64,000 bases of DNA, taken from contig JAXHLS010000002.1 of the NCBI GenBank assembly GCA_034522055.1, positions 310,001-374,000 on the forward strand, written 5' to 3'. The stretch's first letter is position 1; each line of letters begins with the position of its first letter. The position numbers were made by a program, and so were the translations under genes. The notes below the pieces were generated by a model. That model was not told the DNA's origin and searched no databases. It was given only the letters and a program-made list of their open reading frames with translations. Shown here piece after piece: positions 46,977 through 55,203 of this stretch. The stretch comes from Gammaproteobacteria bacterium (GTDB taxonomy: Bacteria; Pseudomonadota; Gammaproteobacteria; JAABTG01).

Positions 46977-48980
46977 GTGGCACAACTCGAACACATCGAA
47001 GCCATCGAAAAACGCCTGTGGAGCGCCGCCGACAACCTGCGCGCCAACTCCAACTACGCCAGCAACGAATACTTCCTGCCGGTGATGGGCCTGGTGTTCC
47101 TGCGCCACGCCTACAGCCGTTATCTGATGGTAAAGGAACAGATCGAACCCCATCTGCCCAGCCGCGGCGGCAAGACCCGTGCCCTGACCAAGGAGGACTT
47201 CTCCCAGCGAAGCGCCATTTATCTCAGGCCCGCGGCCCGGTTCGATTCTCTGGTGGCCCTGCCCGACAGCGCCGACCGCGCCCGCGCCATCATCGAGGCC
47301 ATGGAGTCCATCGAGGCGGATTACGAGAACCTGCGCGGCACCCTGCCCAAAGGCGAATACCAGGAGCTGGACAACCAGGTGCTCGGCCAGTTGCTGCGCA
47401 CCCTCAACCCCGAGGAGCTGAACCGGGTTTCGGGCGATGTCTTCGGCCGCATCTACGAATACTTCCTCACCCAGTTCGCCGACCAGGGTGCCCACGACGG
47501 CGGCGAGTTCTTCACCCCCATATCCCTCGTCTCCCTCATCGCCCACGTCCTCAACCCGGCCAGGGGCACCGTGCTGGACCCGGCCTGCGGCTCCGGCGGC
47601 ATGTTCGTGCAGAGCGCGCGCATCGTCGAGGAACACGGCGACAGCCCCACCGAAAAGCTTACCTTCCGCGGCCTGGAGAAAAACGCCACCACCATCCGCC
47701 TGGCCAAGATGAACCTCGCCGTGCACGGCCTCGAAGGCGACATCCAGAAGGCCATCACCTACTACGAAGACCCCCACGAACTGGTGGGCAAGGCCGACTA
47801 CGTCATGGCCAATCCGCCCTTCAACGTCGACGAGATCGACGCCGACAAGGTCAAGTCCGACCCGCGCCTGCCCTTCGGCCTGCCCGGCGTCAACAAAAAG
47901 GAAAAGGTCAGCAACGGCAACTACGTCTGGATCAGCTACTTCTACAGCTACCTGAACGACAAAGGCCGCGCCGGCTTCGTCATGTCCTCCCAGGCCTCCA
48001 GTGCCGGCGGCGGCGAGGCCAAGGTGCGACAGAAACTGGTGGAGACCGGCGACGTGGACCTCATGATCGCCATCCGCTCCAACTTCTTCTACACCCGCAC
48101 CGTGCCCTGCGAGCTGTGGTTCATTGATCGGGGCAAGCCCGATCAACCCTCATCCCCGGCCCTTCTCCCAGAGGCAGAAGGGGGAAAAACAAGGCAGTAT
48201 CGGGGTGGCCATGATTTCAGCGGACTGGTGGAGCGAGCGCGTGAGCTCCGCAAAAAACAGACTCCGGCGGAAGAGCTGTTCTGGGAACTTGTTCGTAACC
48301 GTCAATTCCTTGGGCTCAAGTTTCGCAGACAGCATCAGGCAGGTGACTACATCCTCGACTTCTATTGCCACGAAGCCGGTATCGCCATCGAGATCGATGG
48401 CCCTGTTCATGACAAACGCAAGAAAAAAGACGCAAAGAGTGATGCCTATCTGAAATCACAAGGCATTCGCGTTGTGCGTATAGAAAACGCCGCATTGCTT
48501 AACGATACCGAAGCAACGCTAGGCAATCTGGCCAAGCAGATCAGTGCTATCGGAGAAAGTCCTCTCCCTTTGGGAGAGGATTTAGGTGAGGGTAGATTTT
48601 CTAGCCCACTAAACCGCAAGGGCCATGTGCTCATGCTTGATGCCAGAAACATCTACCGAAAAGTCACCCGGAAAATCTATGACTTCTCCCCCGAGCAGCA
48701 GCAAAACCTGCAAGCCATCGTCTGGCTCTACCGGGGCGCGACCAACCGCTACCTGCAACTGCTGTCGCAATACCTGGGTAATGTCGCCGACGAAGCCATC
48801 GCCTGTTTCAAAGTCGAAGACGACCTGGGCCACACCTTCCACCCCCTGGCGGACTTCAGCGACGCATTAGATGCCCTGCGCCAAGCCCTCGCGCCATATT
48901 TGAAAACACCCTTCCGAAAGATCATTCGCTTCCCCACTCAGGCAGAGGCCAGGGTGAGGGTGGTCTATCGGAAGTTGTAA
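46977..48980 (+). CDS. hsdM: Type I restriction-modification methyltransferase HsdM, with in-frame DUF559 insertion and frameshifted end
   Basis: A 667-residue product. Residues 1-387 are a normal HsdM: N-terminal helical domain, the AdoMet motif DPACGSGG at about 201-208 and the adenine-methylase motif NPPF at 279-282. Family alignment from memory runs from TVPCELWFIDRGKP straight to HVLMLDARNIYRKVTRKIYDFSPEQ, yet here about 160 residues intervene (388-548) containing a DUF559 endonuclease domain between palindromic modules. After LAPYLKT a further module shifts the frame and the product ends in unrelated residues (TQAEARVRVVYRKL); the true C-terminus continues in another frame from about 48962 to 49606. 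Methylation activity is doubtful. Confidence 0.85.
   Translation: MAQLEHIEAIEKRLWSAADNLRANSNYASNEYFLPVMGLVFLRHAYSRYLMVKEQIEPHLPSRGGKTRALTKEDFSQRSAIYLRPAARFDSLVALPDSADRARAIIEAMESIEADYENLRGTLPKGEYQELDNQVLGQLLRTLNPEELNRVSGDVFGRIYEYFLTQFADQGAHDGGEFFTPISLVSLIAHVLNPARGTVLDPACGSGGMFVQSARIVEEHGDSPTEKLTFRGLEKNATTIRLAKMNLAVHGLEGDIQKAITYYEDPHELVGKADYVMANPPFNVDEIDADKVKSDPRLPFGLPGVNKKEKVSNGNYVWISYFYSYLNDKGRAGFVMSSQASSAGGGEAKVRQKLVETGDVDLMIAIRSNFFYTRTVPCELWFIDRGKPDQPSSPALLPEAEGGKTRQYRGGHDFSGLVERARELRKKQTPAEELFWELVRNRQFLGLKFRRQHQAGDYILDFYCHEAGIAIEIDGPVHDKRKKKDAKSDAYLKSQGIRVVRIENAALLNDTEATLGNLAKQISAIGESPLPLGEDLGEGRFSSPLNRKGHVLMLDARNIYRKVTRKIYDFSPEQQQNLQAIVWLYRGATNRYLQLLSQYLGNVADEAIACFKVEDDLGHTFHPLADFSDALDALRQALAPYLKTPFRKIIRFPTQAEARVRVVYRKL
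48147..48592 (+). mobile_element. Insertion carrying a DUF559 (Vsr-like fold) endonuclease domain, bounded by inverted palindromic modules
   Basis: The left module (CCCTCATCCCCGGCCCTTC then TCCCAGAGGCAGAAGGGGGA) and the right module (CCTCTCCC-TTT-GGGAGAGG then ATTTAGGTGAGGG) are inverted copies of one pattern. Between them, in the hsdM frame, lies a DUF559 domain: ARELRKKQTPAEELFWELVRNRQFLGLKFRRQ, GDYILDFYC, IAIEIDG with PVH, then GIRVVRIEN. The D-x(n)-E-x-D core fits the PD-(D/E)xK/Vsr fold. A possible internal start is the TTG/GTG region near 48222-48241. It is frame-neutral in the host gene. The exact ends are uncertain; foreign sequence probably spans 48139-48623. Confidence 0.75.
48929..48960 (+). 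repeat. Second palindromic module in hsdM (frameshifting)
   Basis: CTTCCCCACTCAGGCAGAGG followed by CCAGGGTGAGGG, the same pattern as the right end of the DUF559 element, lies where hsdM switches from frame of codons starting at multiples of 3 to the next-but-one frame. Confidence 0.7.
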
Positions 48981-49606
48981 AAGAGCTAGACCAGGAAACC
49001 CAACAGTTCCAGCAGGACGTCGACGAGTTCCGCAAAAGCGCGAACGAAGCCGTCAAGAACTGGAAAAAGGCTCCCGACACCAACGCCGCTCTGGTCAAAC
49101 TCACCGCCACGTTCGAGCCTCTCGCCGAGGCCAGCCGCGACCTCATCAAACAGACCGACCTCGTCTACAAACTCGCCACCCGCCTCATCGACGAAGTGTC
49201 ATCTTCCCCTCTCCCCCCGGGAGAGGGGCCAGGGGTGAGGGCAACAACCCGCGACCTCACCCGCGCCCGCAAGGCCGCCGACGAAGCCCGCGGCATCGCC
49301 GTCGAGCAACTGAAAAAGGTCCGCTACTTCTGGAAACAGGCCCACTGGCTCACCGACCGCTTCCCCCAAGGCCAACTGCGCGACGTGGAAGGCCTGGTCA
49401 AGTTGGTGGACATCAAAGAAATCGAAGCCAACGACTGGAGCCTCACCCCCGGCCGCTACGTCGGCGTCGCTCCCGAGGAAGTAGACGAGGACTTCGACTT
49501 CGAAGAGACCCTGCGCGAAATCCACGTGGAGCTGGAAGACCTCAATGCCGAGGCCGTTAAGCTGGCCGCGACGATTAAACGGAATTTTGAGAAGTTGGGG
49601 GTATGA
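48962..49606 (+). pseudogene. hsdM: 3' part of hsdM, out of frame with the 5' part
   Basis: About 215 codons that complete HsdM: KELDQETQQFQQDVDEFRKSA, DLVYKLATRLIDE, then after a third module TRARKAADEA, QLKKVRYFWKQAHWLTDRF, ANDWSLTPGRYVGVAPEE and a coiled C-terminus ending NFEKLGV. There is no ATG, GTG or TTG in this frame before 49196, so without frameshifting it is not translated as a full segment; a product starting at the GTG 49196 (136 residues) is possible. The stop overlaps the hsdS start (ATGA). Confidence 0.8.
49206..49241 (+). repeat. Third palindromic module in hsdM (in frame)
   Basis: CCCCTCTCC-CCCCGG-GAGAGGGG followed by CCAGGGGTGAGGG, translated in frame as SSSPLPPGEGPGVRA between LIDEV and TTRDLTR. 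Same module family and orientation as the two upstream. Confidence 0.8.
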
Positions 49607-50094
49607 CCACGAAACCGCTTGGTGGCCGTCGAAAGATCCCTCCGGGCTGGAGGCCAGTGACCCTTGACGAAATCAAGTCTCCAGATCTCGATGCCTGCCG
49701 CGCTGGTCCGTTTGGATCAAGTATCAGTCGCAAGTTTTTTGTCAAGCAAGGTATACCGGTAATACGCGGAAACAATCTTACAACCAATTTGGTTGAGTTT
49801 GTTGCTGATGAGTTCGTGTATGTATCTGAAGAACGGGCAAGAGATAAATACAAGAACTGTCTAGTCCGGCCTGGCGACCTCGTGTTTACTTGTTGGGGAA
49901 CTATTGGCCAAGTTGGTCGCATTCCTCGAGATGGTCCATTCGGCGAGTATGTGATTTCAAATAAGCAACTAAAGCTCCGTACCAACCCATCGTTTGCGAA
50001 TAGCAAATTCGTCTACTACTACGTCGCCTCAAAGGCAGGCGTCGAATACATCGAAAGCCGAGGCATTGGGGCGGCTGTACCAGGTATCTCGTGA
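49603..50094 (+). pseudogene. hsdS: Type I specificity subunit HsdS, 5' part, truncated by insertion
   Basis: Codes for 163 residues of the first target-recognition domain: IPPGWRPVTLDEI, CRAGPFGSSISRKFFVKQGIPVIRGNNLT, VRPGDLVFTCWGTIGQVGRIP and VEYIESRGIGAAVPGI. The reading frame then meets a TGA inside the left inverted end of the 2.68-kb insertion. Joining the flanks at the duplicated CAGGTAT restores AAVPGINLGILKSIPI in frame with the second part at 52774-53494. Base composition is lower in GC than the metabolic genes, as usual for recognition domains. Confidence 0.9.
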
Positions 50095-50108: not shown

Positions 50109-51551
50109 TCAGGACGCGAGTCGGAACATGCTGATTCTTTCAGTGTCCTGCCGTTCGGTGATGAATTTTGCCAGGGAATGGGTTTTGGCGGAACTCAAGA
50201 GAAATTCCGGCAGCGTGTTGCGTAGCGCATGAGTGACGACGAGTTCCGACGGGGAATACCCGGGTCGGATCGTCCGCAGCCACGAGCCGAAGGATTTCCA
50301 GATGAGCTGCGGGAAAACCACCGACAGATACTGAAGCAAGCCTTGAGCGACGACGCCGGCCTGCATGAAGACGTGGTAGGCGTGGATCTTGCGTTTGACG
50401 TTCTCGCGATACCTGCGCGTTTCCCGGTGCAGGTATTGATTGCCCTTGCGGCGTTTGAGCGGCTTCATGTCCTGCATCCAGAAGTGATAGGCGAAGGTGC
50501 CGATCTGTCGGACGGCCTGCTTGAAGCTGTGCTCGATCTTGAAGCGCAGGCCGTAGAGGCGAATGATCTCGACGGCGTCCAGGGCGACGTCGGTGCACAT
50601 CAGCAGGGAAGAGCCTCTGGTCGGGTGGATGACGGCGACGAAGCGCACGAGCTGTCCGGCGGGCCGCCAGAGCAGGTCTCGGACCTGGTACCGAATCGTG
50701 ACGTTGTCCTCGCCGTAGACGGGGCTTGGCGCGGATTGGAAGTCGTTCGTGTCGTTCAGCAGTGACCTGAGCTTGAGCTTCTTCCCGTAGCGTCTCGGCC
50801 GGCCTCTTTTCCTCGGGCCGCGCTGGTGATAGGGGGTGTAAGCGACGGCATTGGATCGGACGCGGGTGACGAGATGGTTGCCCTCGGCGATGAGGCCGCG
50901 AACCATCTTGCCGGCGGCGTAGTAGGCATCGGCAACGTAGTAGAAGGGTTCCGTGATCGCCACGGTCTGAATCAGGGCGAGCATCTTGTCGAGCAGGGTG
51001 CGCCGGTCGCGATTGGAGAAGACGAGGCCCTCGTGGATGCGCACGGCGAGGGGGACAGCGAAGACGCTTTGGTCGGCCTCAACCAGCAGGCTCACCGCCT
51101 GAAGGGAGTGTCCCATGATGTATTCGGGCTTGGTGTTGGCGTCGGACTGCTGATGCAATAGCTTCACGGCGGGCATCTTCTTGCCGCGCTTGGGGACTTT
51201 GATCCCGTCCCCGACCATGACGCGGCGGCCGTTGACGAGCAGCGGCGCGGGAAAGAGCCGCAGCACGGCCTGGGTCCACAGCGCCGCGAGCCGCTCGAGC
51301 TTGATGGCGCGGCTGTGGAACGAATCCAGCAGGTTGTCGTAGAAGCGGGGCTTGAGGGCGAGCGCCCGCACGAGGCTGGTCACGCCTAAAAGATCGCCTC
51401 GCACGGTGAGACCGGCCACGGCGGTGGCGAACCACAGGAAGGTGCGCAGGCGCGAGAACGCCGGACGCAGCAGCCAGATTGCTTCCACCAGGACTCCCAT
51501 AGCGACATCGTCCACCTCCCATGAAGTGAATGAAACGGTGATTTGGCCCAC
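50109..51551 (-). CDS. DDE-type (IS4-like fold) transposase
   Basis: A 480-residue transposase ending 21 bases inside the left inverted end. Acidic residues fitting a DDE triad are seen in MVGDGIKVPKRGKKMP (about 122-137), FYYVADAYYAAGKMVRGL (about 205-222) and RLYGLRFKIEHSFKQAVRQIGTFAYHFW (about 335-362, the Y-(2)R-(3)E-(6)K-like C1 region with E after KI). The remainder is basic. The ATG at 51551 gives the longest frame; MGVLVEAIW at 51500 is also possible. Intact, so the element may still move. Confidence 0.85.
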   Translation of the reverse strand: MGQITVSFTSWEVDDVAMGVLVEAIWLLRPAFSRLRTFLWFATAVAGLTVRGDLLGVTSLVRALALKPRFYDNLLDSFHSRAIKLERLAALWTQAVLRLFPAPLLVNGRRVMVGDGIKVPKRGKKMPAVKLLHQQSDANTKPEYIMGHSLQAVSLLVEADQSVFAVPLAVRIHEGLVFSNRDRRTLLDKMLALIQTVAITEPFYYVADAYYAAGKMVRGLIAEGNHLVTRVRSNAVAYTPYHQRGPRKRGRPRRYGKKLKLRSLLNDTNDFQSAPSPVYGEDNVTIRYQVRDLLWRPAGQLVRFVAVIHPTRGSSLLMCTDVALDAVEIIRLYGLRFKIEHSFKQAVRQIGTFAYHFWMQDMKPLKRRKGNQYLHRETRRYRENVKRKIHAYHVFMQAGVVAQGLLQYLSVVFPQLIWKSFGSWLRTIRPGYSPSELVVTHALRNTLPEFLLSSAKTHSLAKFITERQDTERISMFRLAS

Positions 51552-52773: not shown

Positions 52774-53494
52774 TAACTTAGGAATATTGAAATCAATTCC
52801 AATTGCTTTACCACCGATTAAGATCCAAGAGTCTATCGTCGCAATCCTCTCCGCCTACGACGACATGATCGAAAACAACCGCCGCCGCATCCAGTTGCTG
52901 GAACAGTCCGCCCGACTGCTCTACAACGAATGGTTCGTCCACCTCCGCTTCCCCGGCCATAAGCATGTCAAAATCAAAGACGGCGTGCCGGAGGGGTGGG
53001 AGAAGAAAACTATTGGCGAGTTGGCGCCGCTAAAGTATGGCAAGGCACTGAAGGCGGATGACCGGGTTCCAGGTCCATACTTAGTCTACGGTTCAAGTGG
53101 CGTAGTCGGCACCCACGACAAAGCACTTGTGCCAGGCCCTGCAATTATCGTGGGAAGAAAAGGCAACGTAGGAAGCGTCTACTGGGCGAGCAGTGGCTTC
53201 TACCCCATCGATACCGTCTACTACATCGACCCCAAAAACTGCAACCTTTACTTGTACTACGCATTGCTCAACACGCAGTTCATCAGCACCGACGTCGCGG
53301 TTCCCGGACTTAACAGAGATTACGCTCACAGCCGTGCACTACTCGTACCTGACGTAAAGATTCTGACGCTGTTCGAGCAGCATGCAGTCGAAATACATAA
53401 ACAGATCGAGTGCCTCACAAAATACAACGCATCTCTCACTAAAGCCCGCGACCTACTCCTGCCGCGCCTGATGAACGGGGAGGTCGCAGTATGA
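52774..53494 (+). pseudogene. hsdS: Type I specificity subunit HsdS, 3' part
   Basis: About 240 codons continuing HsdS: LGILKSIPIALPPIKIQESI, the central conserved helix ILSAYDDMIENNRRRIQLLEQSARLLYNEWFVHLRFPGHKHV, a second recognition domain (IGELAPLKYGKALKADDR ... GNVGSVYWASSGFYPIDTVYY ... PGLNRDYAHSRALLVPDV) and the terminal coiled coil ending LLLPRLMNGEVAV. The only start is a TTG at 52787 without ribosome site. The stop overlaps the OLD-nuclease ATG. Both halves look intact, so loss of the element would restore the gene. Confidence 0.9.
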
Positions 53495-55203
53495 CGCTGT
53501 CGCATGTTTCCATCCATAACTTCCGGGGAATAATCGATGCATCTATGGGTTTTCAACCATATGCGCTTCTGGTCGGTGCAAATAATGCCGGAAAGAGCAC
53601 AATCATTGACTGCATTCGGGCATTCTATGAAAAAGACGGGTTCAAATTTAAAAAAGATGGCGACTTCCCTCTCAAGGGAGCAACCGACCAGGAATCTTGG
53701 ATAGAGCTTACTTTTGCTCTGGACGACCAAGAACACGAATCGTTAAAAGACGAGTACAAGAGCGCTGAAAAAACTCTGAAAGTGAGAAAGTATTTCCAGA
53801 CCAGCGAAAAGATACACGACGGCAAAAATGCGACCGGGTCGATTCTCGGTTACAAGTTTGACGGCACATTATCTAACGAACCGTTTTATGGTGCCAAGAA
53901 CGTACAGAGCGGAAAGTTTGGCGACCTGATCTACATTCCTGCAATCAGCAAGATCGACGAGCATACCAAGCTCAGCGGCCCGTCGGCTTTGCGCGATCTA
54001 ATCACCAACATCATGGCAGATGTTGTCGAGGGGAGTGAGGCGTATAAATCATTGACAGACAGCGTGACCACCTTTGCCGGTAGTGTTCGGGCAATAGAAA
54101 CTGACGACAAACGGTCTCTTTCGAGCTTCGAGGAGGATTTGAACTCGCTGCTCTCACCATGGCAGACCAAGTTCAACCTGAAGTTCACCGCACCCTCCAC
54201 AGCGGAAATCATCAAATCGATGCTCGGCTGGGACATCCGGGACAATCATCATGAGAAGCCGCAAGCCGTTGAATACTTTGGATCAGGATTTCAGCGGCAT
54301 TTCATCTATTCACTAATTCAGCTCGGCGCTAAATACGTCCCTCAAAAGGTTTCCAAAAAGGCGAAGGATTTCACACCATCCCTCAACCTTGTTCTGTTTG
54401 AAGAGCCGGAAGCGTTTCTGCATCCGCCACAACAGGATGATCTTGCCAGAAACTTGATCAAGGTTAGCGAAGCCGAGGATTGGCAGATCGTCTGTTCCAC
54501 GCACTCCGCGCATTTCGTGAGCAGGAATGCCAGCCGCATTCCGGCCATAATTCACGCACAAAGAAGTGACGGAATTGTAAAAACATTTCAAGTCGACTCC
54601 ACCCAATGGGACAACATTGTTGATGGCAACCGTGCCATTGAGCAAGTCGCGGCCAAATATCCGAAAGTCCAGAAAACCATGCAGGACGATGACCTCAAGC
54701 CCGAGATGGAGGCCGTGAAATATTTTCTGTGGTTGAATCCTGACCGGGCCGGGATGTTTTTTGCAGAAAGCGTGTTGCTGGTCGAAGGTCCAAGCGAAAC
54801 TGCACTGATTAACCGGTTACTTGACGATGGTAAATTGTCTCTTCCTCAAGGCGTCTACATTCTGGATTGCCTCGGAAAGTACAACATCCATCGGTTCATG
54901 AACCTGCTGAGCGCACTTGGCGTTGTCCACGCCGTGCTCCATGATGATGACGACAACAAAAATGAGCATCAGGAACTCAATCAGCTTATCTTCGATTCAA
55001 AGCATGCTGATTTCACGAAATCAGTTGTCACATTGCCTAAAGACCTCGAAACAGTCCTCGGGATAACGCCGCCAGTTTCCAGCCACAGAAAACCCCAGCA
55101 TCTTCTTTATTGTTATTCCTGCGGCCAGATTGATGTTGGCAAGCTGACAGATTTCTGTACGAAGGTTCAAGCATGTTTCACGGGGCAGGGAGGTCAATTG
55201 TGA
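53491..55203 (+). CDS. OLD-family ATP-dependent nuclease (ATPase plus TOPRIM)
   Basis: A 570-residue protein. ABC-type ATPase: Walker A GANNAGKST at 29-37, a helical insertion, signature-like AVEYFGSGFQRHFIYSLIQ (about 256-274) and Walker B LNLVLFEEPEAFLHPPQQ (about 295-312), then the D-loop/H-loop CSTHSAHFVSR. The C-terminal TOPRIM domain has SVLLVEGPSETALINRLL (about 427-444) and the acidic HDDDDNKNEH (about 487-496). Overcoming-lysogenization-defect nucleases act in phage defence, often inside other defence loci. Coupled to hsdS by ATGA overlap and to the small relic downstream (GTGA). GC content is clearly lower than average, a sign of transfer. Confidence 0.9.
   Translation: MTLSHVSIHNFRGIIDASMGFQPYALLVGANNAGKSTIIDCIRAFYEKDGFKFKKDGDFPLKGATDQESWIELTFALDDQEHESLKDEYKSAEKTLKVRKYFQTSEKIHDGKNATGSILGYKFDGTLSNEPFYGAKNVQSGKFGDLIYIPAISKIDEHTKLSGPSALRDLITNIMADVVEGSEAYKSLTDSVTTFAGSVRAIETDDKRSLSSFEEDLNSLLSPWQTKFNLKFTAPSTAEIIKSMLGWDIRDNHHEKPQAVEYFGSGFQRHFIYSLIQLGAKYVPQKVSKKAKDFTPSLNLVLFEEPEAFLHPPQQDDLARNLIKVSEAEDWQIVCSTHSAHFVSRNASRIPAIIHAQRSDGIVKTFQVDSTQWDNIVDGNRAIEQVAAKYPKVQKTMQDDDLKPEMEAVKYFLWLNPDRAGMFFAESVLLVEGPSETALINRLLDDGKLSLPQGVYILDCLGKYNIHRFMNLLSALGVVHAVLHDDDDNKNEHQELNQLIFDSKHADFTKSVVTLPKDLETVLGITPPVSSHRKPQHLLYCYSCGQIDVGKLTDFCTKVQACFTGQGGQL

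Follow-up and report, generated by a model that had tools for sequence, protein, structure and literature searches.

The window, by which we mean the whole 64-kb stretch of gammaproteobacterial DNA analysed here, carries an hsdM gene whose reading frame takes in a DUF559 nuclease domain lying between two inverted palindromic modules (Table 1). In the Pfam results the N6_Mtase, HsdM_N and DUF559 (E=1.5e-30) domains all fall in the single frame 46977-48980, the gene that hosts the insert being an N6 methylase. The translation passes both modules without a stop, and the insert is frame-neutral, as the sequence-only reading of this DNA had claimed along with the presence of the domain in frame, although hsdM overall is not.

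Table 1. Features of the interrupted hsdM and its surroundings, in window coordinates
Feature	Position	Strand	Remarks
hsdM frame, type I methyltransferase subunit with insert	46977..48980	+	ends early, TAA 48978-48980
In-frame insert, between ...LWFIDRGK and HVLMLDAR	48138..48623	+	absent at this codon from five homologues (69-76% identity)
Left TM-type module, tag outward	48147..48184	+	read from sequence; same place in L002-L007
DUF559 nuclease domain	48228..48542	+	PF04480, E=2.3e-31; conserved D, D, H; AlphaFold2 pLDDT 85.5
Right TM-type module, inverted, tag outward	48560..48592	-	read from sequence; same place in L002-L007
Decayed lone module adjoining frameshift	48930..48960	-	sequence reading
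3' part of hsdM, next frame	48923..49606	+	aligned stretch 53% identical to L031 HsdM
Intact lone module, in frame in 3' hsdM part	49206..49241	-	also at same place in L003, L005
Likely hsdS part	49603..50094		
DDE transposase gene	50109..51551	-	between the likely hsdS parts
Likely hsdS part	52787..53494		
AAA ATPase with OLD-like TOPRIM domain	53491..55203	+	possible defence gene

The left module consists of a CCCTCATCC tag and a CCCTTCTCCC/GAAGGGGG stem and the right one of a CCTCTCCC/GGGAGAGG stem and a GGTGAGGG tag, and the two are inverted, diverged copies of a palindrome that, as claimed earlier, also stands alone twice more in the gene: once intact, in the complete three-block form (SSSPLPPGEGPGVRA), and once decayed. 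A sequence-string literature search identified the module as the TM/PIT/BoxC motif of PMC4666352. The excerpted text of that paper describes intrastrand-triplex repeats in more than 260 genomes, with 23 copies in E. coli MG1655 that are always intergenic, describes no associated mobility gene, and reports an intrastrand triplex in vitro for the E. coli motif. The modules here resemble the motif of that text in having a stem arm, its complement and a near-copy of the complement, in being G/C-rich and in sometimes forming inverted pairs; unlike it, they flank DUF559 genes and sit inside coding frames. The identity of the module with a described repeat goes beyond the sequence-only reading, as do the break in the gene near the decayed module and the clustering of inserts in restriction-modification genes presented below.

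We note that the decayed module coincides with a frameshift: the stop codon adjoins it and the remainder of the gene continues in the next frame, and the window hsdM is therefore broken. The likely hsdS downstream is split by a 2.7-kb interval holding a DDE transposase gene, with a Methylase_S match in its 3' part only, and the restriction locus of the window is probably in decay. The ATPase gene of Table 1 adjoins this locus.

Taken alone, the ends of the window insert do not stand out, and the case rests on homologues and on general tests. The pair is too diverged to be recognised by itself: its inverted match score of 15 was equalled or exceeded by 308 of 1024 control placements; it is not among the repeats listed by a repeat search; and a module scan at three mismatches was near control in the genome of origin (37+37 against 29+34) and at chance level in the 64-kb window. 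No target-site duplication is evident by eye at the hsdM insertion site, and the genome has one DUF559 match. A related module pattern occurs 75 times in its 5.1 Mb against three times for the reversed pattern, a count that includes three copies belonging to one simple repeat; at the hsdM locus only the third module matches it exactly. The same genome holds 33 exact copies of another module type, CCCTCACCCCATCCCTCTCCC, distinct from that of hsdM and found singly within a repeat of about 120 bp in the three copies read (L224-L226, G000:C2), as well as two module clusters, 20 at G000:C2 2609432-2712784 and 11 at C6 407809-458956, mostly of the CCCTCACCCCGGCCCTCTCCC type.

A DUF559-domain scan of genome contigs yielded 28 loci, among them six further hsdM genes (L002-L007) that are occupied at the same codon, with modules directed outward and frames that read on through the insert. 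In four of these six the inverted flanks score above the 99th percentile of the control. The hosts are assigned to Planctomycetes, Hydrogenedentota, Nitrosomonas, Desulfobacteraceae, an unclassified bacterium and Opitutales; all six genomes are metagenome-assembled, so that the assignment to phylum depends on binning. The supposed interruption of HsdM is evident on alignment with uninterrupted homologues, since five of these (L031, L032, L195-L197) are empty at the insert codon and their sequence runs straight across it. A more distant gene (L035, 47% identity) has a single module in frame at this codon, and another (L037) has a lone in-frame module elsewhere in hsdM. The hsdM insert itself is firm. 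Rickettsia palindromic elements offer a likeness, being palindromic DNA in frame within genes; they differ from the hsdM insert in that, to our knowledge, they carry no nuclease gene.

The domain itself is a YcjD/Vsr-like PD-(D/E)XK nuclease domain, with a match to the related MTES_1575 Pfam family below the cut-off. Twelve columns are invariant in 42 DUF559 sequences, including D52, D65 and H69, which correspond to the Vsr catalytic Asp/His residues described in the available part of PMC12907096. Its AlphaFold2 model matches 3hrl and the homing endonuclease I-Bth0305I, and Vsr more weakly; the E-values for I-Bth0305I (3r3p) are 2e-5 in the profile comparison and 2e-4 in the fold comparison.

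Vsr-like homing endonucleases insert at a fixed site in a conserved gene, and the window insert might be explained in the same manner: DUF559 would cut empty hsdM alleles at a conserved site, and the insert would be copied by gene conversion. This would account for seven hsdM genes from several phyla being occupied at one codon while close homologues are empty, and it accords with the likeness to I-Bth0305I in sequence and fold. In a quick HsdM tree of 37 sequences, some with long branches, the window gene and five other occupied genes form a supported clade (SH-aLRT 99) and L007 is placed apart, beyond empty genes, so that the tree needs at least two changes. That number suits homing, yet six of the seven occupied genes share one clade, and a single old insertion with whole-gene transfer fits them; as for all seven, they would fit either two gains at the one site or a single gain followed by loss. 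Moreover, unlike I-Bth0305I, the window insert has palindromic modules at both ends, the Pfam table holds no intron or intein domain, and homing accounts neither for the modules at the flanks nor for the numerous intergenic copies described below. We consider homing unlikely. What stands of the earlier suggestion of a homing-type or miniature element is the pair of inverted modules and the empty homologues; homing itself is no more than a possibility.

Outside the hsdM-site group, 11 loci contain DUF559 within an open frame that extends 80 or more residues on each side, and nine of these two-sided in-frame inserts have restriction-modification genes as hosts: HsdR (L009, L102), HsdS (L092, L095, L098), HsdM (L091), DNA methylases (L066, L111, in which Pfam-recognised host sequence occurs only before DUF559) and an MmeI-like enzyme (L020). 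Of the remaining two, L076 has an aminotransferase as host and L008 a DEAH helicase with DUF3418, which we take to be of HrpA type. By comparison, a restriction-modification gene was the longest neighbouring frame at one of 20 loci drawn at random from the 59 other class loci (Fisher p=2.5e-5, or 5e-4 against the 13 with a Pfam match, seven of the 20 frames having none); such frames serve only imperfectly as a control, not being inserted genes themselves. In L092 the HsdS with its DUF559 insert shares an open frame with an upstream nucleotidyltransferase domain.

This concentration raises the possibility that restriction-modification genes have acquired DUF559 as a nuclease in a working domain fusion, with the modules no more than scars of its arrival, and the conserved catalytic-type residues are in keeping with it. 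Most sampled DUF559 copies, however, lie outside such frames, next to mostly unrelated genes; the window hsdM is broken; and restriction-modification genes may merely tolerate inserts. We think it very unlikely that a working fusion explains the element. The concentration nonetheless poses a new question, namely how restriction-modification genes gain domains.

The association of DUF559 with the modules was examined in 158 DUF559 pieces, or 150 once eight loci fetched twice were removed. The sample from the window's class, which comprises the matches listed with E up to 4.4e-20 and leaves out the window's own, has 70 loci and 73 pieces, 72 of them scorable and a few partial; the Alphaproteobacteria sample takes the best match per genome from 29 of the 51 genomes with a match; and eight further genomes from several phyla were picked for a DUF559 locus already known there. 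Inverted repeats between the two 220-bp flanks were scored, with sliding placements within the same loci as the control; scores lay above the control's 99th percentile in 50 of the 72 class copies (control n=1791), with 22 not above this threshold, in 15 of 29 Alphaproteobacteria copies and in 17 of 28 from the eight further genomes. Under a stricter test, which required a three-block module of the triplex type on each side of DUF559 at no more than 200 bp, 42 of 72 class copies were positive against 0.4% of 784 control placements, 14 of 29 in Alphaproteobacteria against 0/312, 13 of 28 in the eight further genomes against 0/308, and 8 of 28 genome-contig loci against 0/1868. At least one side carried a module in 55/72, 23/29, 20/28 and 19/28 copies respectively, against 1.3-4.8% for the controls. 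The DUF559-module association is firm, and what the sequence-only reading stated for proteobacteria, that DUF559 genes are widely flanked by such modules, proves true there and in other phyla, the gene-plus-palindrome arrangement recurring in bacteria of several phyla. Where both sides carry a module, the tags usually point inward to the gene (40/42 in the class, 12/14 in Alphaproteobacteria, 10/13 in the eight genomes and 4/8 among genome-contig loci); tags facing the gene are the usual intergenic arrangement, and the hsdM type is reversed, with tags outward.

Across 229 genomes of the window's class, the module pattern was found in 42 of 54 genomes with DUF559 against 25 of 175 without (p=6e-18), and at least five copies in 30 of 54 against 12 of 175; with the reversed-pattern control subtracted, the counts were 38 against 22 for at least one copy and 23 against 10 for at least five. 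These figures apply to a DUF559 cut-off of E<1e-15 and a pattern covering one module type only, with kinship handled only by an even drawing of genomes, and three genomes (G049, G051, G097) have 31-60 module copies and no DUF559 match. DUF559 identity also tracks module similarity (Mantel rho 0.39, with 0/200 permutations as high), and the correlation is not significant within either of two Sphingomonas genomes, G233 and G235. Both the co-occurrence and the Mantel result may be inflated by host phylogeny. Among phages the DUF559 search matched 1 of 50,697 records.

The Sphingomonas genomes also suggest what smaller forms the element may take. S. jinjuensis (G235) has 63 copies of its module, with 17 inward pairs whose spacers measure 30-38 nt and a single outward pair next to a DUF559 gene. 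Apart from small exceptions, the ends are common to all 12 pairs that were read, and nearly the same ends bound the DUF559 elements of Sphingomonas sp. G233 (L139) and of G235 (L141), in which the gene takes the position of the spacer. Because pairs and elements share these ends, the inward pairs resemble DUF559 elements that have no gene. Different DUF559 genes within each of G233 and G235 show 34-59% identity, and their modules are mostly dissimilar.

A different picture is offered by G036, the only one of 17 genomes compared to contain near-identical DUF559 copies. Here three 98%-identical units lie at three places, bounded by 9-bp junction repeats as read by eye (two exact, one with a mismatch), and from the near-identical dispersed copies and the junction repeats it follows that these units were recently mobile, by some enzyme. 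At other loci with long inverted repeats no target-site duplication was convincing by eye. The outer end of the G036 unit recurs, with two mismatches, at four other places in the genome, and in G120 (L220-L223) module pairs lie within a closely similar repeat of about 170 bp that has its own outer inverted repeat.

Given such longer outer repeats, the G036 and G120 units could owe their movement to another transposase, and this leads to a further explanation, that the element is passive, moved in trans by ordinary transposases, with DUF559 as cargo. The long outer inverted repeats, junction repeats and shared outer end of G036 and the nested pairs of G120 are what this would predict. Against it, the constant part across the loci read is module plus DUF559 and never one particular outer repeat, and no transposase frame was recognised by eye beside three of the four related G036 ends (L185-L187). 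We regard the passive element as improbable. A Legionella study, in the part available to us (PMC12308824), identifies as hotspots of mutation and recombination three segments that contain a transposase and DUF559.

The best explanation of the window insert is instead that it belongs to a widespread selfish or once-mobile class in which a DUF559 nuclease gene lies between inverted TM/PIT/BoxC palindromes. We judge it slightly likelier to be right than wrong that DUF559 acts on its own modules and spreads them in the manner of REP sequences and RAYT enzymes. In its favour are the two-sided modules and their orientation, the co-occurrence, the tracking of enzyme by module, the gene-less pairs, the near-identical G036 units and the nuclease fold; against it weigh the unremarkable ends of the window insert, the class copies not above the control threshold, the genomes that have modules and no DUF559, the longer outer repeats in G036 and G120, the missing correlation within the two Sphingomonas genomes and the repair role proposed for VsrA. 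DUF559 would recognise its own module folded as a hairpin or triplex, probably while the module is single-stranded during replication or DNA uptake, and nick it; repair or replication would then copy the unit elsewhere, with solo modules and inward pairs as the non-autonomous derivatives. In hsdM the unit would sit in a presumed surface loop, where its stop-free reading frame would have kept the gene open; hsdM with its insert may then have passed horizontally, giving its presence across phyla, and the window copy would have broken later, near another module.

This scheme parallels REP sequences and their RAYT enzymes, with an unrelated nuclease fold. As with REP/REPIN-RAYT systems in the text of PMC3733652 at our disposal, palindromes surround a nuclease gene and occur both as dispersed singles and as inverted pairs, and the REPtron layout, in which the gene has dispersed palindromes on its flanks and inverted pairs occur at other sites of the genome, is found in this class of elements, the pairs having been counted in G235. 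According to the same text, RAYTs are HUH tyrosine transposases and the REP tag is GTAG, whereas DUF559 has a PD-(D/E)XK fold and its module a CCCTCA-type tag. There Di Nocera et al. also describe CGTC repeats, a palindromic class said to be without a transposase; with a short list of motifs, no CGTC-type REP was found as a DUF559 partner at the 29 Alphaproteobacteria loci, and this candidate was set aside. If the scheme holds, DUF559 would represent a second solution, of unrelated fold, to the REP-RAYT arrangement, and is likely to be the enzyme that goes with a repeat family found in many genomes and previously without a known means of spreading.

We also put forward, tentatively, a wider proposal: that DUF559 proteins are dedicated enzymes that spread and maintain TM/PIT/BoxC palindromes, a REP-like superfamily for which no mobiliser is known, including the BoxC of E. 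coli by way of YcjD, and that the elements repeatedly enter restriction-modification genes in frame, using these as vehicles between phyla. We place it somewhat below an even chance. In the open-licence literature, as far as its available text extends, we found no published link between DUF559 and these repeats. From the portions of PMC1189080, PMC12817139 and PMC12907096 available to us, YcjD is a predicted PD-(D/E)XK protein, and Caulobacter VsrA, which carries DUF559, is required for the SOS response in cells without cytosine methyltransferase and is proposed in the last of these to be a mismatch-repair enzyme; unlike the elements described here, neither is linked to palindromic repeats in those portions.

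E. coli ycjD is annotated as DUF559 and aligns with the family, and judged by this alignment it is a member of the palindrome-flanked DUF559 family. TM modules lie downstream of ycjD, the nearest having its tag toward the gene in L189 and having no tag in L188 (99.8% identical to a K-12 MG1655 record); upstream lies a different hairpin. Three genomes that lack ycjD (L191-L193) were considered as a clean presence/absence site, and they have an efflux operon between sapF and fabI, so that there is no clean empty site; the available text of PMC12817139 names the efflux operon of this region eef. Counting against the scheme, a TM module is present in 5093 of 5426 complete E. coli genomes, although only 3333 of them cover 80% or more of the ycjD query. 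Since E. coli K-12 has this consistent nuclease partner in the form of ycjD, a standard laboratory strain can serve to test how one large repeat superfamily arose.
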